NCBI RefSeq assembly: GCF_900110105.1
Contig: NZ_FOCL01000016.1
Location: 1 to 64,000 of the forward strand
DNA from: Mucilaginibacter gossypiicola
GTDB taxonomy: Bacteria; Bacteroidota; Bacteroidia; Sphingobacteriales; Sphingobacteriaceae
Direction of reading: 5' to 3'
DNA length: 64,000 nt
Below are positions 34,366 through 51,813 of this stretch, in pieces. How positions within the stretch are numbered: the first letter of the stretch is position 1; every line of letters begins with the position of its first letter. A model generated the notes under the pieces. That model was not told where the DNA came from. It did no database searches and was given only the letters and a program-made list of their open reading frames with translations. Made by a program: the position numbers and the translations under genes.

Positions 34366-34438
34366 GGTACCATAGCTCAGATGGTAGAGCAAAGGACTGA
34401 AAATCCTTGTGTCACTGGTTCGATCCCAGTTGGTACCA
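34366..34438 (+). tRNA. tRNA-Phe (GAA)
   Basis: 73 nt. The acceptor GGTACCA pairs with TGGTACC, the D arm holds GCTCAGATGGTAGAGC, the anticodon loop ACTGAAAAT gives GAA, and the T arm is CTGGTTCGATCCCAG. The discriminator is A and a full CCA is not encoded. A terminator follows immediately. The 3' part of this gene is the repeated attachment sequence of the island described below. Confidence 0.97.
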
Positions 34439-34440
34439 CA
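34391..34440 (+). repeat. Attachment-site core (attL) within tRNA-Phe
   Basis: 50 bp, from the anticodon arm to 2 bp beyond the tRNA, is identical to 58876-58925 in the same orientation. A long exact tRNA 3'-end duplication is the classic footprint of tyrosine-recombinase integration at a tRNA. Confidence 0.85.
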
Positions 34441-34446
34441 AGTATA

Positions 34447-34481
34447 AAAAAGGTCATTTTCGATAAGAAAATGGCCTTTTT
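34447..34481 (+). terminator. Terminator of tRNA-Phe
   Basis: aaaaggtcattttc/gaaaatggcctttt stem with a 5-nt loop, ending in TTTTT, directly follows the tRNA. Confidence 0.85.
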
Positions 34482-34515
34482 AGCGTTTAAAGGCATATTT
34501 TCTCTTTCGACTTTT

Positions 34516-36195
34516 CTATGTTGCTTGATCAAGGGATTTAGCAGCTTTAGTCTCTAAATCTTCCAAATGGAACTCGTCAGAAATTTGCTTAGAAAAAAGC
34601 GTCTTTTTTAAATTATAGTTTAATCGATTCTTCGGATCCGCCGATTTCACGATGTCTCCAAATAATGGAAGAGAGTCGTTTATGGTTGTCCCATTATATT
34701 TATCCAACTTAGTTAGCCACCTTCTGATGACATTTGCGCTAATGTAATTTTCAATTTCTTTTTCAGTTGTAATCCAACATCTATCTTCGCCAATCTCCGC
34801 TTGAATCCTTTTTTTTGTATCGTTTATTTCTGTCTTCGGCCCAAGTTTATCACTGTCAATCACAACAAATGCATGTCTATTTATCTTCAACAATGGAATA
34901 ATGTCAATCATAGCATCCTTGTTTTCGTCATCTATTGAACCAATAAATGAAACATTCGCGAGATTTTTTCCACCATAAAACATTATTGAAAAATGTAATC
35001 CTTCCTTTAAAGTACCATCAATTAACGAAAGCCATTTTAATAGATAATTGCGGTCACTTGGCCCCTCAACCCAAATTATACCATTTGCTTGGATTAAGTC
35101 GCTCGCCTTATATCCCATATCATCTAATAAGTTATACGCGGCTTTGCTATTTTCTATTTTTGAGATATGGCTTTTATTTTTATCATGTTCAATGTGGTAA
35201 ATAGAAATATTTGATGAGTAATTTAATAGTGTATTGGAATGAGTAGTAATGAAATAAATGTTTTCCGTTTCATTTGATATAAAATCGAAGAACTTTCTTT
35301 GCAATTCGGGATGCAAGTGACTTTCTGGTTCCTCCATGCATATTACCTTATCGTCGTTAGCCAACAGTGCGCCACAGAGTAAAATTATTTGATAAATCCC
35401 TGAACCATAATTCTCTAAGGGCAATCTTTTCCCATGCATCTTAATCAGGATAGATTTTTTGTCATGTGAGATCTCGAGTTGCAAATCGTTAGTATTAAGC
35501 AATGATTTAACCAAACGTTCCAACTTGTCAAAGTTTTCTCTTTTATAATCTTCACCGGGGTTCGGGTGCTGCATTTGGTGCAGTTCCTCGATTATGTTTG
35601 AACCGTTAATTTTGGAATTCCCTGAATTATGAGATTGAGATGGATTGATAATACGAAAATCGGGTATATATATAAGATCTTTAAGTGTTTTGATTCGAGC
35701 AGAAAAATTCTGGTCAATTAAATCAGCTAAATCGTTCAAAATCCTTTCCGTACTAAATGTCCCACTTTCCTTTTTAAAAGACATTAATTGCGTGATGTTA
35801 AGACTTTGTAGCTCTTGTGGTAGAATATCACTGCTAACTCTGTCCTTATTTGAGGGAAGCCAAACTTTGAACGGATCACTTAGTGAATCGGTTAACTTTG
35901 AGGTATCAAATTGAGTATCATTAATTCGATGAGGGAAGTCTAACTCTGCATGGGAAAAGCTGAATCCTATAGATACGACTTCGCCGCTAACATGGGTGTC
36001 GATGTAGCTTAAATTACCCAACTTATATATATTATTTATGTTTTCTGAAATAAGCTTTAAAAATCGGAGAAAGTTTGATTTACCACTATTGTTCTTTCCG
36101 ACTAAAACATTGATTTTTGATAGGTTATCTAAAAAAACGCCGTTCAAATCAAAGCTTCGATAATTTTTTACCCCTATATTTTTCAGCATCACCAT
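34516..36195 (-). CDS. OLD-family ATP-dependent endonuclease (AAA + TOPRIM)
   Basis: About 559 residues from ATG 36195 (MVMLKNIGVKNYRSF); an ATG 6 bp further in is equally possible. The N-terminal ABC/SMC-type ATPase has Walker A VGKNNSGKSN, signature-like LENYGSGIYQ and Walker B VICMEEPESHLHPE with a His switch (FITTHSN). The C-terminal TOPRIM-like half has WVEGPSDRNYLLKW and FVVIDSDK, the acidic metal-binding sites of OLD nucleases. OLD proteins degrade DNA and often act in anti-phage defence (P2 Old, Gabija GajA). No GajB-type helicase is adjacent, so this would be a stand-alone class. First gene inside the island. Confidence 0.85.
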   Translation of the reverse strand: MVMLKNIGVKNYRSFDLNGVFLDNLSKINVLVGKNNSGKSNFLRFLKLISENINNIYKLGNLSYIDTHVSGEVVSIGFSFSHAELDFPHRINDTQFDTSKLTDSLSDPFKVWLPSNKDRVSSDILPQELQSLNITQLMSFKKESGTFSTERILNDLADLIDQNFSARIKTLKDLIYIPDFRIINPSQSHNSGNSKINGSNIIEELHQMQHPNPGEDYKRENFDKLERLVKSLLNTNDLQLEISHDKKSILIKMHGKRLPLENYGSGIYQIILLCGALLANDDKVICMEEPESHLHPELQRKFFDFISNETENIYFITTHSNTLLNYSSNISIYHIEHDKNKSHISKIENSKAAYNLLDDMGYKASDLIQANGIIWVEGPSDRNYLLKWLSLIDGTLKEGLHFSIMFYGGKNLANVSFIGSIDDENKDAMIDIIPLLKINRHAFVVIDSDKLGPKTEINDTKKRIQAEIGEDRCWITTEKEIENYISANVIRRWLTKLDKYNGTTINDSLPLFGDIVKSADPKNRLNYNLKKTLFSKQISDEFHLEDLETKAAKSLDQAT

Positions 36196-36306
36196 TCTAC
36201 GTTTTTTAAGAGCGATAAATATAAAGAGCAATAATTGGCACCAATATATTCATACTTTCTCTTCTGTTTATTCGAACTATTTCTTTTCTTCAATGATATC
36301 TGCCAA

Positions 36307-37632
36307 TTATATTGAATAGCCTAACAAAATTTCTATCGCCTTATAGAAAAATAATCTATTACATAAGTTAACCATTGGGATAACATCTTCATTTCCCGAT
36401 TTGAAGAAAAATAAAGTTTTTTCAAAGTTTTTATGTTGAATTCGTAGCTCTCCTCCTTTTGAGTACATTTTCTTTATATCATTGAACTTATAGGTGAATT
36501 CTTGTCCAGCTGGCTTGATAAACGTTATAAAACCAATGCCTACTTTTATATATTTTTGGAAAGCGTTTTTTTCGTGAGAATAAAGTGAAAATATTATATA
36601 GCCATCTTTTTGCAAGTCACTTTCCAGCCGATCCAATAGATATACAGTCCAATATTTTTCAATAGTTCTATAAAAGTTCAACATTACCCCTTGGTTTTTT
36701 ATATCGGTGGTTTTCTTAAAATCACCATCCCTAGCCAAGAGTATTTTGCCGGTTGTTCTGTTTAGGCAGACGTAAACGTAATTCGTATGTTGATATACAT
36801 AATTCCTTTTAACTTCTGTATAATGGGAATAAAAATCAGTCATGTCATTGAAATTAACCTCTAAATCAATGGGCAAATTTTTCCGTTTATCCACAAACGA
36901 AAACTGGGCAAAGCCGTTTATGCCAATGTACAGATTCGTGTGAGCGAAATCATTATTAGCGGCACTTAACAATAAGGCTCCAAGTGAAGGAACGGCAAAC
37001 CAAATGGTTATCCAAAGAGGATCTTCAAGTCGAGCTATAAAGTAAATAAATAGACCTGGTATCAATCCAAAGAAAAAGAATTTGATATTTTTTTTAGCCT
37101 TTTGACCTGAATTCATGGGCTGTGCATCCTGAATTAGGTCAGAAAAACCAACTATAATTTTACCGATCCTTGCAGGTAATTTAAAAAACTCTAAATTCTT
37201 TGGCAACGGTTCTCCCCAAAAGCTTTGTGTTGGGTTATATTTCGGAGTTTCTTGCTGTTCTCGATCAAAGGGCGAGTAAAATTGTTTAAAAGGGTCATGT
37301 CTAAACCTTTCTTCTTCTTGCTCGTTGGTTTTTTTTCGTTCCTGTTTTTCTGTGTTACGGTATGAGTAGGAGTATGTGGTAGATTGTTCTTGAGTTTCGT
37401 TTATAGTGGTTTTAAAATATTCGCTATAAACAGAATTGAATTTTGAACGACTATCAGCATCAATTAAGATTGTATAAGCGTCTTTTATTTCTTGAAACTT
37501 CTTTGTAAAAAAAGGATCATCGAAATGTTTGTCTGGATGGAATTTTATAGCGTTTGAGCGGTAAGCTTTTTTTATTTGGTCATCGGTCGCATTGGAATCA
37601 ATGCCGAGAATTTCATAATAATCAACGAACAT
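36307..37632 (-). CDS. J-domain (DnaJ-like) membrane-anchored protein
   Basis: 441 residues. The N-terminal J-domain (about 3-70) is YYEILGIDSNATDDQIKKAY with an intact HPD tripeptide (KFHPDKHF), so it can stimulate an Hsp70 ATPase. A charged, Gln-rich linker follows, then two hydrophobic segments (about 185-225: FFFFGLIPGLFIYFIA, ITIWFAVPSLGALLL) and a soluble C-terminal region of unknown fold rich in aromatic strands. No zinc-finger or client-binding domains of DnaJ are present. J-domain proteins of this shape occur in several uncharacterised defence loci. It sits between the OLD nuclease and the SIR2 gene. Confidence 0.8.
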   Translation of the reverse strand: MFVDYYEILGIDSNATDDQIKKAYRSNAIKFHPDKHFDDPFFTKKFQEIKDAYTILIDADSRSKFNSVYSEYFKTTINETQEQSTTYSYSYRNTEKQERKKTNEQEEERFRHDPFKQFYSPFDREQQETPKYNPTQSFWGEPLPKNLEFFKLPARIGKIIVGFSDLIQDAQPMNSGQKAKKNIKFFFFGLIPGLFIYFIARLEDPLWITIWFAVPSLGALLLSAANNDFAHTNLYIGINGFAQFSFVDKRKNLPIDLEVNFNDMTDFYSHYTEVKRNYVYQHTNYVYVCLNRTTGKILLARDGDFKKTTDIKNQGVMLNFYRTIEKYWTVYLLDRLESDLQKDGYIIFSLYSHEKNAFQKYIKVGIGFITFIKPAGQEFTYKFNDIKKMYSKGGELRIQHKNFEKTLFFFKSGNEDVIPMVNLCNRLFFYKAIEILLGYSI

Positions 37633-37789: not shown

Positions 37790-40700
37790 TTATAACGCTC
37801 CGGCAACGGTTTTCTTTACCAACGTTGTTGCAGCGGCAGTTTGCCTTCCGAAAGTAGAGGCGGCAGAACTGATACCTGAAGTGGAAATTATCCAGGTAGA
37901 GATGCTGGGTACCGTGAACATAGCGATAGCGCCGATCAGGAAAGTAATGATAACTATACCAAATGATAATATACCGTTACCTGCGAAACGAGTTAATTCA
38001 GCCATTTTATTTATCGTTTCGGTTCCGTGGAGCAGACCTTCATAGCGGCTGATCTCAACGGTTAAAGCATATTGCTGAATATAGGCAGATAACCACATAA
38101 TGAGATAAGCTATCGCCCCGTAAAGGTTCACCGATACGAACCGGGCGATCCACGTGGTAAAACTATCCCGGAACGCGGGCAAGATACTGACCGCGACAGC
38201 AAACGGCCCGAGCAGCACAAGGATGCTTGAATAAAACACCTGTATGAAGAACACAAAATAAGTAGCTATTCGCAGAATCCATACGGCAAGCAGTTCAAGC
38301 AGTTGCGTAAGCAGCAATTGTATGCTGATCTGTAGTCGCTCTTTCAATTCGAGTATCGGGGTAACAATGGTAGAAATTCCTTTTTTGACGGTACTCGTTA
38401 CTTGATCCCAGGCCTGGTCATACCATGTATCAGATTCCTTGGCAGCAACTTCCGTCTGTGCCTGGAAATTATAAAGGCTGTCAGCCATTTCCTTCATCAA
38501 CTGCGCCCTTTTCACCCGCAGGTTATCCGCTTCGGTCTGTGCGCCTTTCCATTTCTCCTTGGATTGATTTTCCACTACCTCGCATGGAAAGGCGACTACC
38601 TTGACGAAGACGTTCCACCATAAAATGATCATCGCCAGGCTGAATGGCCTGAGCAATGGCATAATTTCAAGTTGCTTATCGCCAACCATCATTTCGTAAG
38701 ACTTTATGGCAAAAAATATGATCATGAAAATAGCGGATAACGCTTTTGCATCATCTATAAATGTTATACCCTCGCCCCAAATAAGGTTCCGTTTATTCTT
38801 CAAACTGCTTTTAACGAGCAGCCGCGATAAAATTAACGGCACAGCATGTCTCTTTCTCTGTGATTCTTTGCTTTCAATAGGTTGAGCTAACACTTTATAA
38901 CCCAAATCAAGAAAATAGCTAATCAGTCGGTTACATTCTGCCCGGGGTACTTTATTGATGAAACTCCTTGTGAGCAGTTCCTTCGCACTTTTTTCCTGTC
39001 CGGAACGCATGATCAATCCCAATGCCCATGACGTCGAAGAAGGACCAATTCGAAGTATGGCTTCTTTTAAGGGTTTATCACCATAGGTCGAATTTCCGAT
39101 TTTTGGTGGAATACCTGTATCTTCCAAATACCGTATAAACTGGTAGGCTGAAAGCAGGTCTTTGTTAGTGCTTCCGAGATGGTGTGTCGTTGATTTTTTG
39201 CCGATTCGAAATTCTTGCACGTCCTCAACTTCTGTGAAATCACGGGCTGGATGTTCAAGCATGAGCTCGAAGGTTTCCAGTTCCTGCCACGGATCGCAAT
39301 TAAACAATCTCAAATTGTTCTGGCGATCTACAAAATCTTTGCTATCGGCCTCCAGGCGTAGTATGTCCTTTGCAGCGGTAATGCTTCTAGTTACATACCG
39401 GAGCAATTGCATTAATAACGCTTCTTGTGAGACCCATGTGAAATCCGTTAGGTTATCGACCCTCGGCGTTCGCTTACGTACGCTGGCCAAAGCCTGCTCC
39501 AAAATAAGTGCCGCCTCGCTCGCGTTACCGGTTTCTGCGAGTAGCATGGCCCTTTTACCTTCCCAATAAGGCAGGCCCGGATTTGGCGGCCATTCCGAAA
39601 TACATTTTGTAACAACCTGATGATCCAGCGCATAAAGATGAAAAAGACATTTTTCATACCAGATACTCGCTATCCTTTCCCCTTCTAAAAATGGAAGAAA
39701 GCTGTCCATAGTGGAGGCACAGGCTTGCCATCGGTTGACAAAGCCTTCTTCACGATAATAACGCCAAACATTGAAATAGATAGACAACCATTGCTCTTCT
39801 AGCTGACCGCCTCGCCTGTTCGTGATGTTTTCGGTGACTTGGTGTTCATATTTTTGAAGTAAGGCCTCGTAGCTCGGCAGATCACTATCTTGTATGGGGC
39901 AAAGGCAACGCTCCATCCGCCAGTTGTATTCATAGAGTAGTTGGATATCTTCAGGGCCTAAAATCTCTGAAATTTTTGACCTGCTTAATCGGAAATTACG
40001 CGTCACGCTCCAAAGGTCTTTGCGTTGCTGAAGCGGGGCGATCAGCCAGTTTGGATAACTGAGACGGAGATCAGTCCAATGCTGCAATATTTCAGATGTC
40101 TTATGTGGCAGATCATTCTCAGTATAATGGACGGGCTTATCAGGCCAGTCAAGAGGGCGTTCGTTTTCGCGATAGTGCTGCAAGTAATCGAGAAATTTCT
40201 GTAAAAGTTCCTGGTGAGCCGGCTGTTGTCCTTCCTCGTTCAGCTTGACGACAATAATATTGCGCGTTTGAAGAAGGCGGCGTTGGGCGTCGGATAAATT
40301 CGACGACCCCACGAGATATATTTTAGGCGCGTTGTTGACGCCTAGATTGTCGTTTATCCAACTGATCCAGTTTAAGAAGTTGGGATCGTCCGCAGAAAAG
40401 CCAAGTAGACAAAAGGTATTTTCAAGTAGAGACTGTTGAACCGTATTGACAAAAGGAGCAAAGTCATGCGGATATTTTCGGTAATCTTCTTCACTGACAA
40501 TAAATGGCCGTTCTGATGGCATGCTGCCATGTAGCTTGACAATCCGCGGTTGCTCAGCAAATATTAGTTCATTCTTGTTGACAACAAGGTCGTACTTATA
40601 ATTATATACATTTTGACTTGCTCTTTCGAGTAACGTATCATAATTCGTCGTAAAGATATCGGTCCAGGGCAAGTTGAGCAGCCCAATATGGACATCGGAG

Positions 40701-41029
40701 GGACTATGATCAAGGTCTGGTAAGCTATCAATGACGAGTTTGTCCAACACCGGTCGACCAAAAGCGGCCTGGACCTCATCAGCTATCTTTAATATATTAA
40801 GATAGGTTTCTTTCGTGCCTGGTTTTTTGCCATTTAGTTTTTCATATAAAAGATCGCCAAGACCGGGCCACGTGGGGAAGTCCGGTTTGGTATGGTCATT
40901 TTTCTGGGCATTCCTGCTAAAACCTGATCCGATCATGACTGCCGCATGCTTCGACCAGAGGCGCTCCGCGATCTCTTTTATATAAGGCCTAGCATCTGCC
41001 GGGAATTCATTTATATCTACAGTTTTCAT
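37790..41029 (-). CDS. SIR2-domain protein fused to a TraJ C-terminal region
   Basis: 1079 residues in one frame. Residues 1-260 are a SIR2-like NAD-binding domain: VMIGSGFSRNA, IFTTNYDTLLERA, VKLHGSMPS, CLLGFSADD. A helical region follows to about 735, as in defence-associated sirtuins that deplete NAD after phage attack. From about 745 the sequence changes to a membrane protein matching Bacteroidota conjugative-transposon TraJ: AKALSAIFMIIFFAIKSYEMM, EIMPLLRPFSLAMIILWWN, a coiled segment, then helices to the end (ATYFVFFIQVFYSSILVLLGP). The join looks like a recombination scar in which traJ lost its start. Whether the fusion is stable and functional is unknown. Confidence 0.85.
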   Translation of the reverse strand: MKTVDINEFPADARPYIKEIAERLWSKHAAVMIGSGFSRNAQKNDHTKPDFPTWPGLGDLLYEKLNGKKPGTKETYLNILKIADEVQAAFGRPVLDKLVIDSLPDLDHSPSDVHIGLLNLPWTDIFTTNYDTLLERASQNVYNYKYDLVVNKNELIFAEQPRIVKLHGSMPSERPFIVSEEDYRKYPHDFAPFVNTVQQSLLENTFCLLGFSADDPNFLNWISWINDNLGVNNAPKIYLVGSSNLSDAQRRLLQTRNIIVVKLNEEGQQPAHQELLQKFLDYLQHYRENERPLDWPDKPVHYTENDLPHKTSEILQHWTDLRLSYPNWLIAPLQQRKDLWSVTRNFRLSRSKISEILGPEDIQLLYEYNWRMERCLCPIQDSDLPSYEALLQKYEHQVTENITNRRGGQLEEQWLSIYFNVWRYYREEGFVNRWQACASTMDSFLPFLEGERIASIWYEKCLFHLYALDHQVVTKCISEWPPNPGLPYWEGKRAMLLAETGNASEAALILEQALASVRKRTPRVDNLTDFTWVSQEALLMQLLRYVTRSITAAKDILRLEADSKDFVDRQNNLRLFNCDPWQELETFELMLEHPARDFTEVEDVQEFRIGKKSTTHHLGSTNKDLLSAYQFIRYLEDTGIPPKIGNSTYGDKPLKEAILRIGPSSTSWALGLIMRSGQEKSAKELLTRSFINKVPRAECNRLISYFLDLGYKVLAQPIESKESQRKRHAVPLILSRLLVKSSLKNKRNLIWGEGITFIDDAKALSAIFMIIFFAIKSYEMMVGDKQLEIMPLLRPFSLAMIILWWNVFVKVVAFPCEVVENQSKEKWKGAQTEADNLRVKRAQLMKEMADSLYNFQAQTEVAAKESDTWYDQAWDQVTSTVKKGISTIVTPILELKERLQISIQLLLTQLLELLAVWILRIATYFVFFIQVFYSSILVLLGPFAVAVSILPAFRDSFTTWIARFVSVNLYGAIAYLIMWLSAYIQQYALTVEISRYEGLLHGTETINKMAELTRFAGNGILSFGIVIITFLIGAIAMFTVPSISTWIISTSGISSAASTFGRQTAAATTLVKKTVAGAL

Positions 41030-42063: not shown

Positions 42064-42267
42064 ATGAAAAAGAACCTTTATTTAAAAAGTTTAAGTAACT
42101 ACAAGAGCCTTAAAGCGGATACCTACAACACTACATTTGGAGGTTATGCGTCTACTGACCACGACGATTCAAATACCTTTGACAATTCACAAAGTTTCGA
42201 TTCATCTGATGAAAATGACAATTCAGTCTCAAATGACTTTTCATTTAGTTTGGACAATGTTTGGTAG
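42064..42267 (+). CDS. RiPP precursor peptide 1 (double-glycine leader)
   Basis: 67 residues. Leader of about 27 residues with the family pattern KSLSNYKSLKADT and a Gly-Gly site in TTFGG, the expected cut for a C39 peptidase. The roughly 40-residue core is nearly all Asp, Ser, Asn, Phe and Thr (YASTDHDDSNTFDNSQ onward), ends FSLDNVW and has no Lys or Cys. Repeated D-S and S-D pairs would suit Ser/Thr-to-Asp ester macrocycles made by an ATP-grasp ligase. It matches the style of 'grasp-with-spasm' modified peptides. Linkages are inferred, not seen. Confidence 0.8.
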   Translation: MKKNLYLKSLSNYKSLKADTYNTTFGGYASTDHDDSNTFDNSQSFDSSDENDNSVSNDFSFSLDNVW

Positions 42268-42310
42268 AAATAATTGCATTCCATTTTAATTTTTAAATAA
42301 TCCTTATTTT

Positions 42311-42514
42311 ATGAAAACCTTAACTTTAGTAAGCCTAACCAATTTCAAATCATTGACCGCTGAAACTTTTAATTTTACAATTGGCGGTAAAGCATCGCAA
42401 GATCATGATGATTCCAGCACCTTCGATAGTTCGAGCAGCTATGACTCATCCGATAGCAATGATAGTTCAAATAGCACGGACACAGAATCTTTGAGCTACG
42501 ATAACGTATTGTAA
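42311..42514 (+). CDS. RiPP precursor peptide 2 (double-glycine leader)
   Basis: 67 residues, a clear paralogue of precursor 1, 43 bp downstream. Leader MKTLTLVSLTNFKSLTAET with Gly-Gly in FTIGG. Core KASQDHDDSSTFDSSSSYDS and on, ending SLSYDNVL, parallels precursor 1 position by position (DHDDS, TFD, YDSSD/FDSSD, YDNV/LDNV). The only Lys is the first core residue. A good terminator 36 bp after the stop makes 1 and 2 a separate bicistronic unit that can be expressed far above the enzyme genes. Confidence 0.8.
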   Translation: MKTLTLVSLTNFKSLTAETFNFTIGGKASQDHDDSSTFDSSSSYDSSDSNDSSNSTDTESLSYDNVL

Positions 42515-42549
42515 GTCGCTATTTAAACAGCCATACAAATTTCTTTATC

Positions 42550-42584
42550 AGTTCCCGGTGACGCGTACTACCGGGAACTTTTTC
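42550..42584 (+). terminator. Terminator of the first precursor pair
   Basis: agttcccggt/accgggaact, a perfect 10-bp stem with a 10-nt loop and TTTTT tail. Confidence 0.9.
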
Positions 42585-42666
42585 AGGGAATAAATCTTTG
42601 AAGTTTCGAAGAGTTACTTTGTAATACTCTATTGCGAACCTAAATTTCACAATAATTAGTATTATT

Positions 42667-44016
42667 CTAATTAACAAGATTGATTGTTATGGAGTTTACC
42701 CAAACAATGCTTTTATCCTGACTTTTTTTCAATTGTCCTAAATAGAAATTTTTATCCGGCTTGACTAATTTTTTGAACAATTCTTTATTGTTAACAACCA
42801 CGCTTATTTGTTTATTCAAGTCTAACATTTTAGGACTTATAAGCAGTGTAAATTTTGTTATACGTGATGTTAAAATGTTAATTGTGTTATTGTGAATTTC
42901 TGCCTTTATAGCTGCACTTTCATCTAACTTATAATAGTCAAACGGAAAATAGGATTGCATTTTTTTATTGTATGCTTTAAGGTTGAATATTTTGTGCCAA
43001 GCAGCTCTGGGTAAGTTTAAATCCCAACTATTAACTTCTATCCAACTAAGACCTTCAAACAAAGAATTACTGGTCTCCCAATAGAGTTGTTTGGGGTATG
43101 GATTTCGGAATGTATTCGTAATGAATTTAATACTGTTGGGATAATCAATATCTAAATGTTTGTCTTCATGCGTGTAACCAAAATATTCCTTGTATTCCAA
43201 GGGCACATGTAAGGAATCCAGAATTTTAACAATATCTCTCGTTTGTTGAATTGGTCTAATATCGTCTTTGTCCGAATGTACAAGGCGAAGTGGGCGGTTG
43301 ACCGCATTAGCGATATAAAGATCATGAGCAAATATGTTGGAAAGCTTAGAATTATAAGCAATCATACCAGCGAAAATTGTAGGTTTATACAAGTCAAATG
43401 CAAAAGCACCATCCGATCCATCAGAATGTCCAAACACAAATACCTTACTGTCATCAAAATTGATTGTTTTCTTTAGTTCATAAATGATATTTTCAAGTGT
43501 ACTAAAAGTATAGTTTTTACTACCTCCAAATGAATTTGCAGCCCAATCAAACCCTTTACCGGGATCAGCAAATGGCTTTACGACGATGAAATTGGAATTG
43601 CAAAGTTTCGAATAAAAAGGATCGTCATCCGGCTGCACTTTTGAATTCTCAGCATCGGAAAATTTGGATTGCCCCACTGCTCCATGAAGTAATAAAATAA
43701 CAGTATGGCGCTGACTGGGATCATAGTTTTCCGGGATATAAAGTTTGAATGGAACATTTCCAAACACGGAATCCTGCATAAAGAATATATGTTCGCCTGT
43801 GAATTTGTCTAATGATGGATAATTATTAAAATTATGGATCTCATTAATAAGCTTTTCAAATGAAGAGTTTGCTGAAGTATTCACGGTTTGGTCGATGGAT
43901 ACTCTCGGCAAATCCTTGATGCTTACGGTTTGTGCCATTCCATTCAATTTGAAGCACGAGAATAACAACGTGATAAAAATATTGTTTAAATATTTGTTTT
44001 GATTTAAAATTTTCAT
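42667..44016 (-). CDS. Secreted alpha/beta hydrolase (esterase/peptidase-like) in the RiPP cluster
   Basis: 449 residues with signal peptide (ending near NGMAQ). An alpha/beta-hydrolase fold spans about 90-320: oxyanion strand VILLLHGAVGQ, nucleophile elbow FGHSDGSDGAF with Ser198, an acid candidate in VHSDKDD and a catalytic His candidate in GYTHEDKH. A C-terminal beta-rich domain of about 120 residues (KAEIHNNTINILTSRITKFTLLI) resembles those on bacterial feruloyl esterase-like proteins. It is encoded opposite to all other cluster genes, between the precursors and the receptor. Hydrolysis of the cluster's own ester-linked peptide is an attractive hypothesis; a general carbohydrate or peptide esterase is the alternative. 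Confidence 0.75.
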   Translation of the reverse strand: MKILNQNKYLNNIFITLLFSCFKLNGMAQTVSIKDLPRVSIDQTVNTSANSSFEKLINEIHNFNNYPSLDKFTGEHIFFMQDSVFGNVPFKLYIPENYDPSQRHTVILLLHGAVGQSKFSDAENSKVQPDDDPFYSKLCNSNFIVVKPFADPGKGFDWAANSFGGSKNYTFSTLENIIYELKKTINFDDSKVFVFGHSDGSDGAFAFDLYKPTIFAGMIAYNSKLSNIFAHDLYIANAVNRPLRLVHSDKDDIRPIQQTRDIVKILDSLHVPLEYKEYFGYTHEDKHLDIDYPNSIKFITNTFRNPYPKQLYWETSNSLFEGLSWIEVNSWDLNLPRAAWHKIFNLKAYNKKMQSYFPFDYYKLDESAAIKAEIHNNTINILTSRITKFTLLISPKMLDLNKQISVVVNNKELFKKLVKPDKNFYLGQLKKSQDKSIVWVNSITINLVN

Positions 44017-44189
44017 AAACGAGGCAGATTATAAATAAACAAATTCATGTGAAATTTGCTAAAAATAATCAAAAAAATGTAAATTATTCACTGTAAAATA
44101 TGATAATTCACATCAATATTAATTTTTTTAAAAAAAAATAATTTTTTTGTTGAATTTATTAAATATATTGCCAAAGTGATTTAAGCCTT

Positions 44190-46454
44190 ATGAATAAACA
44201 TCTAAAAATACTTTTAGCGACTCTTATTTGCATTTTTTTTAAAAACAACTCCTTCGCCACATCGGGAGTATATTTAGCAAAAGGCGATTTGAAACTAAAT
44301 GAAGCCCATAGAAGACGTAGCTGTATTCAACTCGATACAGGAAGGCACCAAAACATTATCATTAAAGATACAACTAAACAAAAAGCCGATACGTCCCGAC
44401 TAAGAAACAACGTGTTAAAAGGGGTTACAATTAAGGGTAAAAGGGTATTGCTCGTACAAAACGTTGACCGGTCAATTGTCACAGTCGAAAATAACAGGTT
44501 GTTTTTAGGAAGTAATCTTGAAGAAGTTTTAGAAAAAATACCGGGTGTTACTATTGATGGCAATAATCACCTTATTGTCAACGGCAATGGATCAGTAAAA
44601 TTTCAGATAAACGGAAGAGATATTCCAATTTCTGGTAATTCAATTTCATCATTCTTGAAGTCGATTCAATCTTCTGCCATAAAATCGGTCGAAATAATTA
44701 ACCCCTCGGCTAAGTCAGACGCCCAAAGTTCGGCTAAAATTTTAAATATAAATACTGTACAACAAACAACAGATGGGTTTACGCTAAGTCCAGGGTTAAC
44801 ATATTCTCAAGGTAAGTATGCGCGAACTGGAATAAATTTATTTTCCCAGGCAAAAGTTAAAAAATTCACCTTTCAATTACTTTCATTTGCCGATCTGTCA
44901 AATGAGTATTCTACCGAGAAGTCGTCGCGAATTTTTCGAAACACGACAAATTTCATCAATGAGTCGAAAGCATTGAACCGCAAAAGATCTTATCTAAACA
45001 AAATTGACATCAATTATAATTTTGATAAGAAAAACATTTTAGGACTAAGTTTCTATAACACACAGTCAAACCAGAAAAATTCAACTAACTCATTTTTTGA
45101 ATTTAGAAATAACACATCTCCGGACTCTTCATACTTGAACAACAGTTTGGGTAAACAAAACTTATCCTATTCAATTTATAGTGGCTATTTTAAACATGCA
45201 TTTGATGAAGATGAGGAATATATTTCTTTTAATGTCGATGTCAACAGAGCTACAAACAGACAAAACTACTTATTTACAAATCAGTCTATTTATTCAACTG
45301 TCGACTCCATCGGTACCAGATTAGATCAATCAACGCATTCCAACTCTAGCCTCTGGGTGCCCTCAGTGTACATAAACTATAGCAAACCATTGATAAAAAG
45401 TACGGGGCGTTTAGATCTTGGTCTGAAATATACTTCCACCAAAGACCACGAGTATTATGACGGCCAAAATGACTTAAATAACGCCTATTCATATAATGAA
45501 TCAGTTGCTGCCGGATATGTTTCTTTCTTATATGACAAGAAAGCATTCAGTTTTCAAGGTGGGTTTAGAGCGGAAAATTCGAGTACTAAGGGCGAGATAA
45601 ATAATAATTCAGTGACCGATAAAAAATATTTTAACCTATTCCCTTCCATCTCTTTACAGCGGAAATTTCATAACGATGACTACATTGTTTCCGTAAATTA
45701 TAGGAAAAGAATTATTCGGCCCACATTCCTGGCGTTAAGTCCTTTTCTTTATTTTACTTCTCCTTATGAAGCATTCCGCGGAGATGCGACGTTATCCCCC
45801 ACACTGATAGACGATTTTAATGCGTCATTTACTATTAAAGGGGTATACATCAACGCCAATTATAGTAGTATGCATAATGTGATATCGCAGTTGCCAATAA
45901 TTGACGATTCACTTACTACTATTACAAATCAATATATCAACATTGGTGCCGAGCATTACCGCTCGATCAATGTATCTTATCCATTCAACATAAAAACTGT
46001 TAGCCTCACACCTAGCGTGAATGCCGAATCCGCATCAAGCCACTTGACGATAAATTCTCAGAATCTGCTGAAGAACACCAGTGATATTTCATTTAACTTA
46101 AATGGGGTTTATCGCTGTGATAAGACCAGCAGATTCGAAATCAGGTCGTTTTATGTTCCTAAAGTGATAACGGTATCATCTACCATAAACCACAAAAGTG
46201 GCGTGACGATAAGATATATAAAAACGTTCTTAGACGGTAATTTAAGCATGAGAGCTGCAGTTGAGGATATTTTTAATGCCAATAAAGAAAGTGGATCAAA
46301 CAATTTCGGTGGATATGTAGGAACATTTTCAAATTTCTATGACAACAGAAGAGCCAGCCTTTCTTTAACCTATTCATTAAGAAAAGGAAAACGCGTGAGT
46401 ATTAACGCTCCGGGACAGGAAAATAGTGATACTAACGAAAGAATAAAAAACTAA
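44190..46454 (+). CDS. TonB-dependent-receptor-like outer-membrane barrel
   Basis: 754 residues with signal peptide (MNKHLKILLATLICIFFKNNSFA). There is no carboxypeptidase-regulatory domain; a short linker leads to a plug-like region (about 80-190: LKGVTIKGKRVLLVQ, VLEKIPGVTIDGN, INPSAKSDAQSSAKILNI) and a barrel of the 'outer membrane beta-barrel family' type (YRKRIIRPTFLALSPF, SLTYSLRKG). A similar but larger receptor lies at 54.1-56.5 kb. It is divergent from the hydrolase with 173 bp between, and in line with the modification genes 43 bp downstream. It may import, sense or export the modified peptide. Confidence 0.85.
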   Translation: MNKHLKILLATLICIFFKNNSFATSGVYLAKGDLKLNEAHRRRSCIQLDTGRHQNIIIKDTTKQKADTSRLRNNVLKGVTIKGKRVLLVQNVDRSIVTVENNRLFLGSNLEEVLEKIPGVTIDGNNHLIVNGNGSVKFQINGRDIPISGNSISSFLKSIQSSAIKSVEIINPSAKSDAQSSAKILNINTVQQTTDGFTLSPGLTYSQGKYARTGINLFSQAKVKKFTFQLLSFADLSNEYSTEKSSRIFRNTTNFINESKALNRKRSYLNKIDINYNFDKKNILGLSFYNTQSNQKNSTNSFFEFRNNTSPDSSYLNNSLGKQNLSYSIYSGYFKHAFDEDEEYISFNVDVNRATNRQNYLFTNQSIYSTVDSIGTRLDQSTHSNSSLWVPSVYINYSKPLIKSTGRLDLGLKYTSTKDHEYYDGQNDLNNAYSYNESVAAGYVSFLYDKKAFSFQGGFRAENSSTKGEINNNSVTDKKYFNLFPSISLQRKFHNDDYIVSVNYRKRIIRPTFLALSPFLYFTSPYEAFRGDATLSPTLIDDFNASFTIKGVYINANYSSMHNVISQLPIIDDSLTTITNQYINIGAEHYRSINVSYPFNIKTVSLTPSVNAESASSHLTINSQNLLKNTSDISFNLNGVYRCDKTSRFEIRSFYVPKVITVSSTINHKSGVTIRYIKTFLDGNLSMRAAVEDIFNANKESGSNNFGGYVGTFSNFYDNRRASLSLTYSLRKGKRVSINAPGQENSDTNERIKN

Positions 46455-46497
46455 TAAATTACTTAACCACTTATCATCTTAGCGATTTTAATTTTCC

Positions 46498-47472
46498 ATG
46501 ATAGTTATCCTCTCATTTAGTTATTATGAACAAGGTACAGATCCAGTTATTGACTGGCTATTATATTATAAGGTTCCATTTGTTAAAATTTGTGTCGAAG
46601 ATTTATTGACGAAGAGTCATGAATATAATTTAGACGTCAATACCGGTAGGCTTTCCATAGCTGGGACAGACATTACAGACAAAATTAAGGTGATATTTTT
46701 TAGACGATTTTATCGCTATCTGCAATTCGAAAATAAAGAAACCTTGGGGGAAATTTCCAGAAAAATATTTTATGAGTCAAATGAAGAATTAAATGGATTG
46801 ACTCAATTTTTATATAAAATATTTGAAGAAAAAATTTGGTTCCCCAGACCTGAAGTTGTCAATGTTAATAAACTGACGATTACCTACATTGCAAGTAAAT
46901 TAGGGATTAAAACGCCCAAATCGGCTATAATAAATAACAAAAATGATGTTGTCAAATTTCATAATTCGTGCAGCCAGGGTATCATAAATAAACCGATAGG
47001 AAGACTAAGTTACTATACGTTCGGCAGATACACTTACAACACTTACACTACAAAATATACTGAGGAAAAGATTGAAAAGCTTCAAAATTCGTTTTTCCCC
47101 TCTTTATTTCAGGAGGCTGTAATTAGTCAATATGAAGTTAGGGTCTTTTATATTGACGGTGATTTTTATGCGACAGCGGCGGTTTCAAGCAATAAAGATC
47201 GCAACATTGACATCAAACGAAGTTTTAATACGAAGGAATTGCGTTGGATTCCTTATGCTCTGCCGGAAAGTGTAAAGTTGGATATTACTAAATTAATGAA
47301 GGAAATTGATTTAGTTACAGGCTCAATTGATCTCTTGGTAGACGATGAGAACAATTTTACATTTATTGAAGTCAACCCTGTCGGTCAATATTTGGCACCC
47401 TCAAATCAAAGCAACTATTATATAGATAAAATAATCGCAGAATGGCTAATAAAAAAATTGCAGCTAGCATAG
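46498..47472 (+). CDS. gwsG: ATP-grasp peptide maturase, grasp-with-spasm type
   Basis: 324 residues. N-terminal pre-ATP-grasp region (MIVILSFSYYEQGTDPVIDWL, VIFFRRFYR), then the ATP-grasp fold: a nucleotide-binding strand (GIINKPIGRLSYYTFG), an external-element motif (FQEAVISQYEVRVFYIDGDFY), and the metal/ATP site TFIEVNPVGQYLAP, close to the FxEVNPxGQ of microviridin and other graspetide ligases. These enzymes activate Asp/Glu side chains as acyl-phosphates and join them to Ser/Thr/Lys as esters or amides. With Lys-free precursors, esters are expected. Four cotranscribed genes follow with overlapping ends. Confidence 0.88.
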   Translation: MIVILSFSYYEQGTDPVIDWLLYYKVPFVKICVEDLLTKSHEYNLDVNTGRLSIAGTDITDKIKVIFFRRFYRYLQFENKETLGEISRKIFYESNEELNGLTQFLYKIFEEKIWFPRPEVVNVNKLTITYIASKLGIKTPKSAIINNKNDVVKFHNSCSQGIINKPIGRLSYYTFGRYTYNTYTTKYTEEKIEKLQNSFFPSLFQEAVISQYEVRVFYIDGDFYATAAVSSNKDRNIDIKRSFNTKELRWIPYALPESVKLDITKLMKEIDLVTGSIDLLVDDENNFTFIEVNPVGQYLAPSNQSNYYIDKIIAEWLIKKLQLA

Positions 47473-47708
47473 TTTCAAATGATGAAGATACTCCGTTTGA
47501 TGAGGAGCTCTTGCTTAAAATACCATTAGGTTATAGATCTATGGTTAAAAAGGAAACGGAATTTATTGGAGAACTATATCGACGTGTGAAGTTTAGTGGT
47601 TCTAAGCTTTTTCAGTCGAATCAGTACTCGAATTTCCCGTCACATAAACCAATTTCGAATCTACTACTGGATTTAAGAATTCAAGAAACCATTGAAACAG
47701 ATGAGTAA
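47442..47708 (+). CDS. Unknown 88-residue RiPP-cluster protein
   Basis: 88 residues, overlapping the end of the ATP-grasp gene by 31 bp and the next gene's ATG by 8 bp, so almost certainly translated with them. Acidic start (SNDEDTPFDEELLLKIP) and a basic, aromatic middle (YRRVKFSGSKLFQSNQYSN). No signal peptide, no membrane helix, no cysteines. I do not recognise a family. Position between ligase and SPASM partner suggests a role in leader recognition or complex assembly, which is inference from gene order only. Confidence 0.7.
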   Translation: MANKKIAASIVSNDEDTPFDEELLLKIPLGYRSMVKKETEFIGELYRRVKFSGSKLFQSNQYSNFPSHKPISNLLLDLRIQETIETDE

Positions 47709-48651
47709 GCATTTAATTCTCCACGCCCATTGTATCCCGGTTCGAGGTAAAGAACAAGGGGCTATATATGATTTACAAAAAGGGTCACTTATGTTCATTC
47801 CAAATTCGATGATTGATTTGATAGAATATATGAGGGACGAAAGCTATCATAAAACTAGAAAAGTGGTCAACTCTTTAGCGTTTTTCAAGGAGCATGTAGA
47901 TTTTATTTTATCGAATGGCCTAGGATTTTTTACCGATCACCCTCAGCGATTTATTGCTCTTCCCGATCAATATCATTCGCCGGAGGAAATATCGACAGCG
48001 GTTATAGAATACGGAGCTGACAAATTTGATTTAAAGTCCGTAATTAATGAATTGAATATGTTGCGTTGTAAACACATTGAATTCCGTTATATTGACTGTA
48101 ACCCTGATTTCTCAGAACTAAGAACATTGATTGGATACACAAACAATTCTACCATACGGTCGATTGAGCTTCATTTGACTCAAAACGAAAAGATAAGTAA
48201 AGTCAATTTACTCGGTCTGGCAGGCGAGTTTAAGAAGCTTAGAACAATTAACGTTCATAATTCAGCAAGTGCGGATTATGATTTTAAGAATAATATTTTC
48301 TTCCTTGAGAGCGATTGGAAAACTGTCGAGCAAAAACATTTTCCCCATGATGTGTACATTGTCAATATGAAGTTTTTTATGGAAAGTCAGAAGTTCAATA
48401 CTTTTTATAACCAAAAAGTCTGTATTTCCAGAGATGGGTATATTAAAAACTCCTTATTGAACGTAAGGCATTTTGGTCAATATAGTACAAATAATACACT
48501 TACAGATGTAGTTAGAACTGATGAGTTTAAGAAATTATGGTTTATTAGTCCGGATATGATAGAGGAAGTCAAAGAATCTGAAACGAGGTATGCGACCTTG
48601 TTTTCACAAGATGTAGAATTAATAGATGGAAAATATCATTTAATTCATTAA
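47701..48651 (+). CDS. gwsS: SPASM-domain maturase partner, grasp-with-spasm type, cysteine-poor
   Basis: 316 residues from ATG 47701. The middle is an alpha/beta repeat region (IEYGADKFDLKSVINELNML, HIEFRYIDCNPDFSELRTLI) like a radical-SAM barrel lacking its CxxxCxxC. The C-terminal part follows the SPASM layout of this family: FYNQKVCISRDGYIKN, HFGQYS, EFKKLWFISPDMIEEV, ETRYATLF. Cysteines expected after KN, in the 'C-x-DC' and in 'RY-x-C' are Ser, Val/Ser and Thr/other here; only the KVC cysteine remains. The Fe-S clusters are therefore probably not bound. It overlaps the exporter gene by one base (TAATG). Confidence 0.8.
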   Translation: MSKHLILHAHCIPVRGKEQGAIYDLQKGSLMFIPNSMIDLIEYMRDESYHKTRKVVNSLAFFKEHVDFILSNGLGFFTDHPQRFIALPDQYHSPEEISTAVIEYGADKFDLKSVINELNMLRCKHIEFRYIDCNPDFSELRTLIGYTNNSTIRSIELHLTQNEKISKVNLLGLAGEFKKLRTINVHNSASADYDFKNNIFFLESDWKTVEQKHFPHDVYIVNMKFFMESQKFNTFYNQKVCISRDGYIKNSLLNVRHFGQYSTNNTLTDVVRTDEFKKLWFISPDMIEEVKESETRYATLFSQDVELIDGKYHLIH

Positions 48652-50879
48652 TGAAGAGTCTGCAAAGCAAATTTGTCTTTTATCACCAAGCTGATCATAT
48701 GGATTGCGCTGCTACTTGCTTAAGAATGGTAGCTAGATACTACGGCGCAGACTATGATGTCTCACATCTGAGAGATTTGGTAAATACAACCAGGCAGGGG
48801 GCTAGCCTTGCTGGCATCCAAGATGGTGCAGGAGCGATCAGGTTAAAAACACTTGTATCAAAGGGGACAGTGGAAAATTTGGTTAAAGAGCACTTGTTAC
48901 CTGCGGTATTATATTGGAATCCAGATCACTATGTGGTACTTTACAAGATTTCCGAGACAAAAAAAGGCGAATACATATTCTTTATTGCCGATCCCGCACT
49001 TTCAAAATATAAAGTATCTGAAAAAAAATTTAGAGAAAAGTGGGTTAGTGACAACGCCGACGGTGAAGGATTGATCGTGTTTTTCGAGCCGGGCGAGGAC
49101 TTCATGGAAACATACGATGAATATGCGTTAAATTACGTGAAGCCATCGAGGCACTTTTACTGGGAATATGTTAAAGCTCACAAAGCCTCGTTCTCATTGA
49201 TATTGTTAATAACGATAATCTCTTCATTATTTAATCTGGTATTTCCTGTACTTACACAAAAAATTGTAGATACGGGCATCCCGAATAAAGACCTGTCACT
49301 TATCTCACTTTTCTTGTTGTTTCAGATTGGGGCATTTATTGGCAGTTCAGTGTTCGACATGGTTAAGGGTAGGTTATTATATGTTGTTACGACTAGAATT
49401 AATATAAATATATTAACAGAATTTCTTTTAAAGTTAACTAGGCTATCCGTTCGTTATTTCGACAATAAGGTCGCGAGCGATATTACGCAAAGAATTGCTG
49501 ATCATTCGCGCATTGAAAAATTCCTGACAACGAATTTGATTGGAACCATATTTTCGGTTTTCAACTTTGCTTTTTTTTCTTTCTTGATCTTAAAATATGA
49601 TTATAAGATTTTTTTAATCTTCCTGAGCATCACCGTATTTTCCATTTTATGGATGTTCATGTTTGTTAAGAGGCGTAAATCAATAGAATATAAGCGTTTT
49701 GAAGCATACAAGGATTCCTCAAATTCTTCATATGAAGTGATTTATGGAATGAAGGAACTAAAGTTGAATAATGCACAAATAGCCAAAATAGAAGATTGGG
49801 GTGTTGATCAAAAAAAAATCTACGCGATTAACAAAGAGTCGATGCTTTTGGAGCAGAGGCAAAATATAGGAAATGTCTTGATAAATCAAACCAGAAGTGC
49901 ATTAGTAACATTTTACTGCGCTTTTTTGGTCATCCACGGGAAGATATCAATTGGTGAAATGTTAAGTATTTCATTTATGTTAGGTCAATTATCATCTCCT
50001 TTTACACAATTTTTTGAATTTATTAAAGGATGGAACGAGGCATATTTCAGTTTTGATCGGATTAATGAAGTAAAGGAGAGACAAGACGAGGATGATGAAT
50101 TCCTCCCTCATGGTCATACCCTAAAAACAGTTTCGGCATTTGAAAGAATATTGATTTCTAATTTGAATTTTAAATACGATAAAAGTTCTCCGGTTAATGT
50201 TTTGGACGGCATCAATATTGAAATAAAAAAGGGGCAAAAGGTGGCTTTTGTTGGTAATAGCGGAAGCGGGAAGACTACATTGGTTAAATTGTTGTTGAAA
50301 TTTTACCTACCGTCTAAAGGAATTATTAGCGTAGACAGTAATGACTTAGCAGAGTTAGAAGCAAACAGTTGGCGGCAAAAATGCGGTGTTGTGATGCAGG
50401 ATGGATATATATTTTCAGCAACAATATTACAGAATATTTGCTTGGATTCGAAAAAAGTGGATCTGGAACGGGTTAAGCAAGTTTGCCATCTGGCGAACAT
50501 CAAGGATTATATAGAATCCTTGCCAAAAAAATATAACACCAAGATCGGCGGTTCCGGTGTTGGTTTAAGTGGAGGCCAAATTCAACGCATTTTGATAGCG
50601 CGGGCATTATATAAAAATCCTGAAGTGTTGTTTTTTGATGAAGCTACAAGTTCCTTGGATACGGAAAACGAGCGTATAATAATGGAAAACATTAATGAGT
50701 TCAGCACGGGTAAAACGCTCGTTGTTGTCGCTCATAGATTAAGTACTGTAAAAAATGCAGATATGATTTATGTTTTTAATAACGGTAAAATAGTGGAGGC
50801 TGGTAATCATGTTGAGTTATTGGTGAATAAAGGCTTTTATTATAAATTGGTTTCAAATCAATTGGAGTTATCAAACTAA
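48651..50879 (+). CDS. C39-peptidase-containing ABC exporter
   Basis: 742 residues. N-terminal C39 peptidase (about 8-150): catalytic Cys19 in MDCAATCLRMVARYYG, His in PDHYVVLY, Asp in IADPA; it should cut precursor leaders after Gly-Gly. A six-helix transmembrane domain fills about 175-460. The ATPase has Walker A GNSGSGKTT (about 534), signature GLSGGQIQR (about 640), Walker B VLFFDEATSSLD and switch His in VVAHRLS. It processes and exports the modified peptides through the inner membrane. No HlyD-type adaptor is in the window, so passage across the outer membrane needs other components. Confidence 0.95.
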   Translation: MKSLQSKFVFYHQADHMDCAATCLRMVARYYGADYDVSHLRDLVNTTRQGASLAGIQDGAGAIRLKTLVSKGTVENLVKEHLLPAVLYWNPDHYVVLYKISETKKGEYIFFIADPALSKYKVSEKKFREKWVSDNADGEGLIVFFEPGEDFMETYDEYALNYVKPSRHFYWEYVKAHKASFSLILLITIISSLFNLVFPVLTQKIVDTGIPNKDLSLISLFLLFQIGAFIGSSVFDMVKGRLLYVVTTRININILTEFLLKLTRLSVRYFDNKVASDITQRIADHSRIEKFLTTNLIGTIFSVFNFAFFSFLILKYDYKIFLIFLSITVFSILWMFMFVKRRKSIEYKRFEAYKDSSNSSYEVIYGMKELKLNNAQIAKIEDWGVDQKKIYAINKESMLLEQRQNIGNVLINQTRSALVTFYCAFLVIHGKISIGEMLSISFMLGQLSSPFTQFFEFIKGWNEAYFSFDRINEVKERQDEDDEFLPHGHTLKTVSAFERILISNLNFKYDKSSPVNVLDGINIEIKKGQKVAFVGNSGSGKTTLVKLLLKFYLPSKGIISVDSNDLAELEANSWRQKCGVVMQDGYIFSATILQNICLDSKKVDLERVKQVCHLANIKDYIESLPKKYNTKIGGSGVGLSGGQIQRILIARALYKNPEVLFFDEATSSLDTENERIIMENINEFSTGKTLVVVAHRLSTVKNADMIYVFNNGKIVEAGNHVELLVNKGFYYKLVSNQLELSN

Positions 50880-51035
50880 AAGCCTTTTTTCCTCTTTTAT
50901 TGCCAGGTCCTCAATGAACTATTCGCGATGTCCAATATTATCTGAATAAAAAAAGTCGACACAACTATTTACTTCAAAAGGCGATCTTATTTGTTTGCAT
51001 GACCTTGTATTAAATACGTAATAAATTAATAGAAT

Positions 51036-51257
51036 ATGAAAAAACAAACAATTTGTTTAGAAAATCTCTTGGATTTTAGAAGTGGAGAGCAACAAATCAC
51101 AATTTTGTCCACGACATTTGGTGGTGTCTATTGTCACGACGGTGATGTATCCTATTCACAAGACACCTCAACGTCAGGTGATGTATCACAATTGGATGAC
51201 AATTCGCAATCAACGGATGATTCGGAAACTTTGGATAGCAGTGATAACCATGATTGA
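51036..51257 (+). CDS. RiPP precursor peptide 3 (double-glycine leader)
   Basis: 73 residues. Leader with the CLENLLDF block and Gly-Gly in STTFGG. The core of about 43 residues (VYCHDGDVSYSQDTSTSGDV onward) repeats short Asp-Ser/Thr units and ends DSSDNHD, the same ending as precursor 5. There is one Cys in the core and no Lys. It follows the exporter by 156 bp and is probably the first of three tandem precursors. Confidence 0.8.
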   Translation: MKKQTICLENLLDFRSGEQQITILSTTFGGVYCHDGDVSYSQDTSTSGDVSQLDDNSQSTDDSETLDSSDNHD

Positions 51258-51360
51258 CTTTATTTATTAAAAAAAAAATAATCAAGTTTTGTCGTATTAT
51301 TTTATATTATCAAAGTTTATTTTTATATTTAAATGAGCTTATAATCTAAATCTAATTTAT

Positions 51361-51585
51361 ATGACAAAACCTACAATTACCTTAGAAAATCTTCAGATTT
51401 TCAACACAAAAAATCAAATTGCAACCAATTTGTTTGCAACTTACGGTGGTGTTCTTCAATCACACGATAATGATCAATCGGATCAAAACGACTACTCTTA
51501 TTCGAATGATATTTCGGAATACTCGGATTCGAGCCAGCATAACGACGATTGTACTGCCGGTGACACCAGCGCATCAGCAGATTAA
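51361..51585 (+). CDS. RiPP precursor peptide 4 (double-glycine leader)
   Basis: 74 residues. Leader ITLENLQIF and Gly-Gly in FATYGG, then a core of about 44 residues rich in Asp, Ser, Asn, Tyr and Gln (SHDNDQSDQNDYSYSNDIS). It has one Cys (DDCTAG), no Lys, and ends SASAD. The leader block resembles precursors 3 and 5, whereas the core is its own, consistent with a shared enzyme set acting on diversified substrates. Confidence 0.8.
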   Translation: MTKPTITLENLQIFNTKNQIATNLFATYGGVLQSHDNDQSDQNDYSYSNDISEYSDSSQHNDDCTAGDTSASAD

Positions 51586-51603
51586 TTTTATCAAAAGAAA
51601 ATC

Positions 51604-51813
51604 ATGAAAAAAATCAATTTAGAAAGTTTATCAAACTTTAAAGAACAATCCGGCAGCATCTTGTATGCAGTGCTAGGCGGGCAACAGTCAGTATCATATG
51701 ATACATCAGGTATTGGCGATACGTCAACGAATAATGATACGTCAACGGCCGCGGATAACTCCACTGACCACGATGGATCTGATTCTTACGATACATCAGA
51801 TAATCACGATTAA
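51604..51813 (+). CDS. RiPP precursor peptide 5 (double-glycine leader)
   Basis: 69 residues, 18 bp after precursor 4. Leader NLESLSNFKEQSG with Gly-Gly in YAVLGG. The core has the most regular repeat of the five, a D-T-S spacing about every 7-8 residues (YDTSGIGDTSTNNDTSTAAD), ending YDTSDNHD. It contains no Cys or Lys. The regular acid-hydroxyl spacing is what a repeated-macrocycle graspetide would need. A terminator lies 57 bp downstream. Confidence 0.8.
   Translation: MKKINLESLSNFKEQSGSILYAVLGGQQSVSYDTSGIGDTSTNNDTSTAADNSTDHDGSDSYDTSDNHD

Follow-up and report, generated by a model that had tools for sequence, protein, structure and literature searches.

Gene content and organization of the locus

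The window (the whole 64,000-nucleotide stretch of Mucilaginibacter gossypiicola DNA that was analyzed) belongs to an 8.2 Mb genome and carries a cluster of five small open reading frames (ORFs) with double-glycine (GG) leaders, an ATP-grasp ligase, a SPASM-related partner, and a C39 exporter (Table 1). These components had been recognized in the initial annotation, and all of them lie where it placed them; what it missed is the strictly periodic ladder in the precursor cores, the small protein that overlaps both ligase and partner, and the absence of the partner's cysteine tail. The closest comparable cluster is that of M. phenanthrenivorans. Relatives were collected by ATP-grasp searches of genus, family, class, and phylum samples, and the comparison set is a sample; within it, the closest relative (L017) carries the same cassette with three precursors, its five larger proteins being 44–68% identical to those of the window.

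Table 1. Features of the cluster, with positions in the window
Feature	Position	Strand	Description or evidence
Precursor P1	42064–42267	+	GG leader and core of 6 SxxxD units, tail NVW
Precursor P2	42311–42514	+	GG leader and 6 SxxxD units, one step of 7, tail NVL
Terminator-like hairpin and T run, 3' of P2	42550–42579	+	−20.2 kcal/mol for folded 42535–42590, z −4.27
Alpha/beta hydrolase, secreted-type, PHB-depolymerase/esterase-like, divergent gene	42667–44016	−	Profile matches
Outer-membrane beta-barrel (OMP_b-brl_3) with TonB plug	44190–46454	+	Domain matches
ATP-grasp ligase (graspetide synthetase), TIGR04192-like	46498–47472	+	Profile match
Small LPL-type protein, 88 aa, overlapping ligase end and partner start	47442–47708	+	Homologs in relatives; class described in PMC8939145
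Pseudo-SPASM partner: predicted N-terminal RRE and radical-SAM-like half barrel, all SPASM cysteines gone	47701–48651	+	Profile, alignment, predicted structure
C39 peptidase-containing ABC exporter	48651–50879	+	Peptidase_C39 and ABC domain matches
Precursor P3	51036–51257	+	GG leader and 7 units, donor 1 is Cys
Precursor P4	51361–51585	+	GG leader and 7 units, donor 6 is Cys
Precursor P5	51604–51813	+	GG leader and 7 units
Terminator-like hairpin with T tail, 3' of P5	51869–51901	+	−17.4 kcal/mol, z −6.10

The precursors were initially described as two separately terminated groups. This stands for P1 and P2, which are followed by a hairpin of their own; P3–P5 may instead form the tail of the main operon, since the terminator scan gave nothing resembling a terminator from the exporter stop to P3. 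The divergent hydrolase has a 44% identical counterpart at the equivalent place in the closest relative, and a PHB-depolymerase-like esterase adjoins the cluster in both of the closest Mucilaginibacter ladder loci. Such an enzyme could open or trim ester links; the branch can probably do without it, because it was found in just these two loci of the comparison set.

The ORF at 37790–41029 on the minus strand (1079 aa) joins an N-terminal 750 aa matching the Dsr2 anti-phage protein (924.9 bits, profile positions 3–755 of 1215) in frame with a TraJ-like conjugation membrane protein (aa 761–1076, TIGR03782), and may be either the outcome of recombination or a genuine fusion. At 34366–37632, a tRNA-Phe stands beside an AAA_21/OLD-like ATPase and a DnaJ-domain protein; together with the Dsr2–TraJ ORF that follows, this region resembles the border of a mobile or defense island.

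Precursor cores form an SxxxD ladder

Each of the five cores is a gap-free ladder whose unit consists of a Ser or Cys, three free residues, an Asp, and one spacer, amounting to 33 SxxxD units in the window, while the ladder precursors found in relatives have between 5 and 8 units each. Every ladder Asp has a Ser or Cys at −4 and every ladder Ser or Cys an Asp at +4; the arrays begin at a donor and finish at an acceptor no more than three residues from the C-terminus. An Asp–Asp distance of 6 prevails in the window cores, and across 11 ladder precursors the unit-to-unit step is 6 in 58 of 59 cases. Period-6 runs of DxS exceed expectation in every peptide (p from 5e-5 to 1.3e-3, with 20,000 composition-preserving shuffles for each core). 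The donors in the 70 units of these 11 precursors are 67 Ser, 3 Cys, and no Thr, although Thr is frequent at neighboring positions. All three Cys of the 11 cores occupy donor positions, as does the Cys of a twelfth precursor; this last (L136:14269–14442, minus strand) is a third ladder precursor of genome G183 and lies 12 kb from its cluster.

The cores are strongly acidic (net charges of −9 to −12), and their sole Lys is residue 1 of P2. P1–P5 are leader-bearing precursors near the ligase with repeated hydroxyl donors and carboxylate acceptors, a combination by which graspetide clusters are recognized. They gave no match to curated RiPP precursor families such as TIGR04149, which in the relatives L029 and L069 finds sub-cut-off precursor matches only. 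The C-terminal ends are DNVW in P1, DNVL in P2, DNHD in P3 and P5, and SASAD in P4; the endings common to P1 and P2 and to P3 and P5 had been taken to suggest two product types from one enzyme set. We have dropped the division between P1–P2 and P3–P5 as a main point; the case for it is weak, all five cores being one and the same SxxxD ladder that varies in the number of units (6 or 7) and in the tail.

The repeat could be parsed as DxS rather than SxxxD, but this would leave the N-terminal Ser without a partner, and the one irregular unit of P2 (DTESLSYD, a step of 7) keeps SxxxD intact while breaking DxS, as do relatives with other repeat lengths. Recent expansion of a DNA repeat is likewise ruled out: outside the Ser and Asp codons the units share 30% identity against 27% expected, and the Ser donors are encoded by both TCN and AGY codons, which points to selection on the residues.

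The ligase, its partner, and the small LPL-type protein

The ligase is related both to the grasp-with-spasm family TIGR04192 (220.2 bits, E 4e-65, under the NCBIfam cut-off of 230) and to structurally solved graspetide ligases (AMdnB, E 5e-43; CdnC, E 2e-22). As expected of an MdnB/MdnC/CdnC homolog, it retains the ATP-binding residues and the acidic-x-R motif, with K125, K165, E213-x-R215, D278, and E291-x-N293 all conserved. In the ATP-grasp searches, one group of ligases scores well above other grasp-with-spasm ligases, and one position, 240, is fully specific to this branch, being Lys in its members and Arg in 31 of 31 canonical relatives.

The partner matches TIGR04193 over profile positions 2–302 of 342, at 132.7 bits under a cut-off of 175. 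In the alignment, the canonical tail CKDCEFRYICTDCRAY...KCxYxP is replaced by a stretch that lacks this cysteine motif and keeps only an RY pair. The SPASM cysteine tail is missing from every one of the 11 loci that make up the ligase branch and from none of the 31 others, and its loss maps to a single branch of the ligase tree (SH-aLRT 100). A frameshift or sequencing error was ruled out as the cause, the loss being common to the 11 loci and a plasmid locus (below) and the exporter gene overlapping the stop. The radical-SAM motif CxxxCxxC was not found in the window partner or in the 11 homologs compared with it.

The predicted structure of the partner (mean pLDDT 84, pTM 0.66, from a model resting on 9 sequences) suggests what has been kept. 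Residues 3–83 of the model adopt the N-terminal winged-helix fold expected of an RRE and superpose on RRE domains, including that of the lasso peptide protein B1 (6jx3; Z 9.7, 2.0 Å over 75 residues), with further matches to TbiB1, PbtF, MccB, and TruD. Residues ~90–316 of the model align with the radical-SAM/SPASM barrels of BtrN, PqqE, SuiB, and anSME, and both TigE and the sactipeptide enzyme 5wgg/5why align along almost the whole chain, full-length Foldseek matches reaching TM scores of just ~0.2–0.4. Because the predicted fold combines an RRE leader-binding domain with a relict radical-SAM barrel, the partner is probably a non-catalytic adaptor that has lost its catalytic ligands and kept its leader-binding part.

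Between ligase and partner, the slot of the small LPL-type protein is filled by homologs in 11 of 11 clade loci. The protein lies directly upstream of the SPASM gene and bears an LPL-like motif (KIPLGYR in the window, xLPxxYR in most relatives), the two features that mark the LPL family (PMC8939145); its predicted structure has a pLDDT of 62.

Co-occurrence of ladder precursors with the ligase branch

The initial annotation had named in advance one outcome that would count against it, namely a failure of the peptides to co-occur with the ligase in related genomes. Ladder precursors instead track the ligase branch (p 1.8e-6). Among 150 genomes of the genus, they were found at E < 1e-10 in just three, which are the three that have a ligase of the branch; one marginal match elsewhere (E 0.0019) falls inside a 329-aa frame. 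A scan of genome contigs with the ligase pair gave two loci only. Two branch members with ligase and cysteine-free partner, L071 and L131, have no recognizable GG precursor nearby.

A plasmid search made after the hypothesis had been formed recovered one branch ligase, on a mobilizable plasmid of Hymenobacter canadensis, and this locus shows every predicted feature of the branch. Its ligase has K240 and a DIK motif, an LPL-type protein occupies the expected slot, and the partner, annotated as hypothetical, matches the branch profile at 316 bits and lacks the cysteine tail. Ten tandem, near-identical precursors (L145:6068–7851, plus strand; annotated as ComC/BlpC-family in nine cases and as hypothetical in one) carry two SxxxD motifs each, SKKxD and SNSxD. 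Enrichment of the +4 distance recurs here (z 4.9, on six distinct cores that are near-copies of one another).

Donor–acceptor spacing in relatives and the predicted pairing of residues

Branch members with other repeat lengths bear on which Ser would be joined to which Asp. Members with non-hexad, Lys-containing cores exist (e.g., DSTKKDVDSEKQDSASND), and cores for this comparison were picked by eye from GG-bearing ORFs near the ligase. In these Lys-rich non-hexad cores, a Ser or Thr followed by Asp at +4 was observed 40 times against 15.6 expected (z 7.5); the enrichment persists when near-duplicates are removed (z 6.1) and when only the two remotest lineages are considered (z 5.1), whereas canonical grasp-with-spasm cores give z 1.5 at the same distance. 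Clade relatives also have Lys near Asp, with spacings of +2 to +4 enriched, so that amides are possible in those relatives.

An S/T-to-D distance of +4 is all that relatives of other repeat length share with the ladders, from which they depart in D-to-S and D-to-D distances; we therefore predict crosslinks between Ser(i) and Asp(i+4). A different pairing, in which Ser and Asp would be linked across units as in plesiocin or microviridin (a hairpin or interlocked arrangement running from Ser i to Asp i+10 or beyond), draws on the frequent nesting or interlocking seen among known graspetides (PMC13097080), and a period-6 ladder fits +10 and +16 too; the hexad set alone would allow S(i)–D(i+10). 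We nevertheless consider such cross-unit links unlikely, as +4 is the sole spacing that the ladders share with the Lys-rich relatives and with the Hymenobacter peptides, whose unit spacing is different, and as corallotide proves that isolated i/i+4 links are made (PMC13097080).

Discussion

The evidence favors, with reasonable probability, assigning the cluster to a distinct branch of graspetide-type RiPP systems, in which an RRE adaptor and a ligase would form six or seven SxxxD macrolactones per peptide for export by the C39 transporter. The graspetide assignment of the initial annotation, and its preference for esters over amides, are well supported by the sequence. We lean, with less assurance, toward the more general proposal that the branch makes polyester ladders in which 5 to 8 Ser(i)–Asp(i+4) macrolactones follow one another at one-residue spacing, the dead radical-SAM/SPASM protein serving only as an RRE-bearing adaptor.

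In graspetide chemistry, the ligase activates an acceptor side chain for attack by the donor (PMC13097080). In the mechanism we propose, the shared leader of the precursors would be bound by the predicted N-terminal RRE of the iron–sulfur-free SPASM relative, a pseudoenzyme adaptor, perhaps joined in leader binding by the small LPL-type protein. Asp side chains would then be phosphorylated by the ATP-grasp ligase and linked to the Ser, or rarely the Cys, that precedes them by four residues, each Ser–Asp link closing a 17-membered ring, as counted from the covalent structure. The calculated mass of the GG-cleaved core would thereby drop from 4496.73 to 4370.65 Da in P5, which would lose 7 waters, and from 4523.76 to 4415.70 Da in P1, which would lose 6. 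The product would be a row of separate macrolactones, with one residue between neighbors; the exporter, judging from its family, would cut after GG and export the core, and the TonB-type barrel and the esterase may act outside.

An ordinary grasp-with-spasm system, with a few Asp/Ser links in an unspecified pattern and a SPASM protein performing a second, iron–sulfur chemistry on the core, would account for the homology to TIGR04192 and TIGR04193 and for a gene order that matches branch 5 of PMC8939145. But the CxxC...C tail is absent throughout the branch and kept in 31 of 31 other loci, the partner has no radical-SAM CxxxCxxC, and canonical cores show no +4 signal; we regard this account as improbable. 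The name grasp-with-spasm, used in the initial annotation, describes the ancestry of the cluster and not its mechanism, given that neither protein reaches its NCBIfam cut-off and that the partner is without any SPASM iron–sulfur ligand. Acidic Asp/Ser repeats resemble calcium- or mineral-binding repeats, and it is conceivable that these very acidic cores bind metal, mineral, or a surface with no crosslinks, the ATP-grasp enzyme adding something else (e.g., amino acids), but we give this little credence, as the ligase is closest to ester- and amide-forming graspetide ligases and the donor positions accept Cys but not Thr, which would be odd for mere metal binding.

The interest of the polyester-ladder reading lies partly in the way the branch ties together core pattern, ligase residue 240, and the state of the partner. 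The partner has no iron ligands yet is kept in every branch locus, which makes the leader-binding adaptor hypothesis directly testable. If the reading is true, these clusters would yield regularly stapled ester chains whose ring number is set by repeat number—an attractive property for peptide engineering. Our search of the literature on grasp-with-spasm, SxxxD graspetides, and TIGR04192/TIGR04193 found no paper on this branch, though branch 5 of PMC8939145, or another survey, may already contain it without setting it apart.

Comparison with known systems

The cluster shares with grasp-with-spasm systems (TIGR04192/TIGR04193; branch 5, PMC8939145) its occurrence in Bacteroidota and its GG precursors, ATP-grasp ligase, LPL-type protein, SPASM homolog, C39 exporter, and outer-membrane barrel, and departs from them in the lost SPASM cysteine tail, in K240 for Arg in the ligase, and in SxxxD-ladder precursors with almost no Cys. 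Corallotide, a group 15 graspetide in which isolated i/i+4 KxxxD macrolactams are proven (PMC13097080), is similar in its repeated, isolated donor-xxx-Asp units (five per peptide) and in a ligase helped by other proteins; its donors, however, are Lys, giving amides, and a 2OG oxygenase adds hydroxylation, whereas here the donors are Ser and there is no oxygenase. Rosaritide offers a parallel for the proposed adaptor: ligation depends on a partner with an RRE-like N-domain (MirB/MirC, PMC13097080), although MirC is a relative of PPIase chaperones and the partner described here derives from the radical-SAM/SPASM fold. Plesiocin and microviridin, finally, share homologous ATP-grasp chemistry, and plesiocin also has tandem units, but their rings are nested or interlocked, whereas single SxxxD links are predicted for the peptides of this branch.
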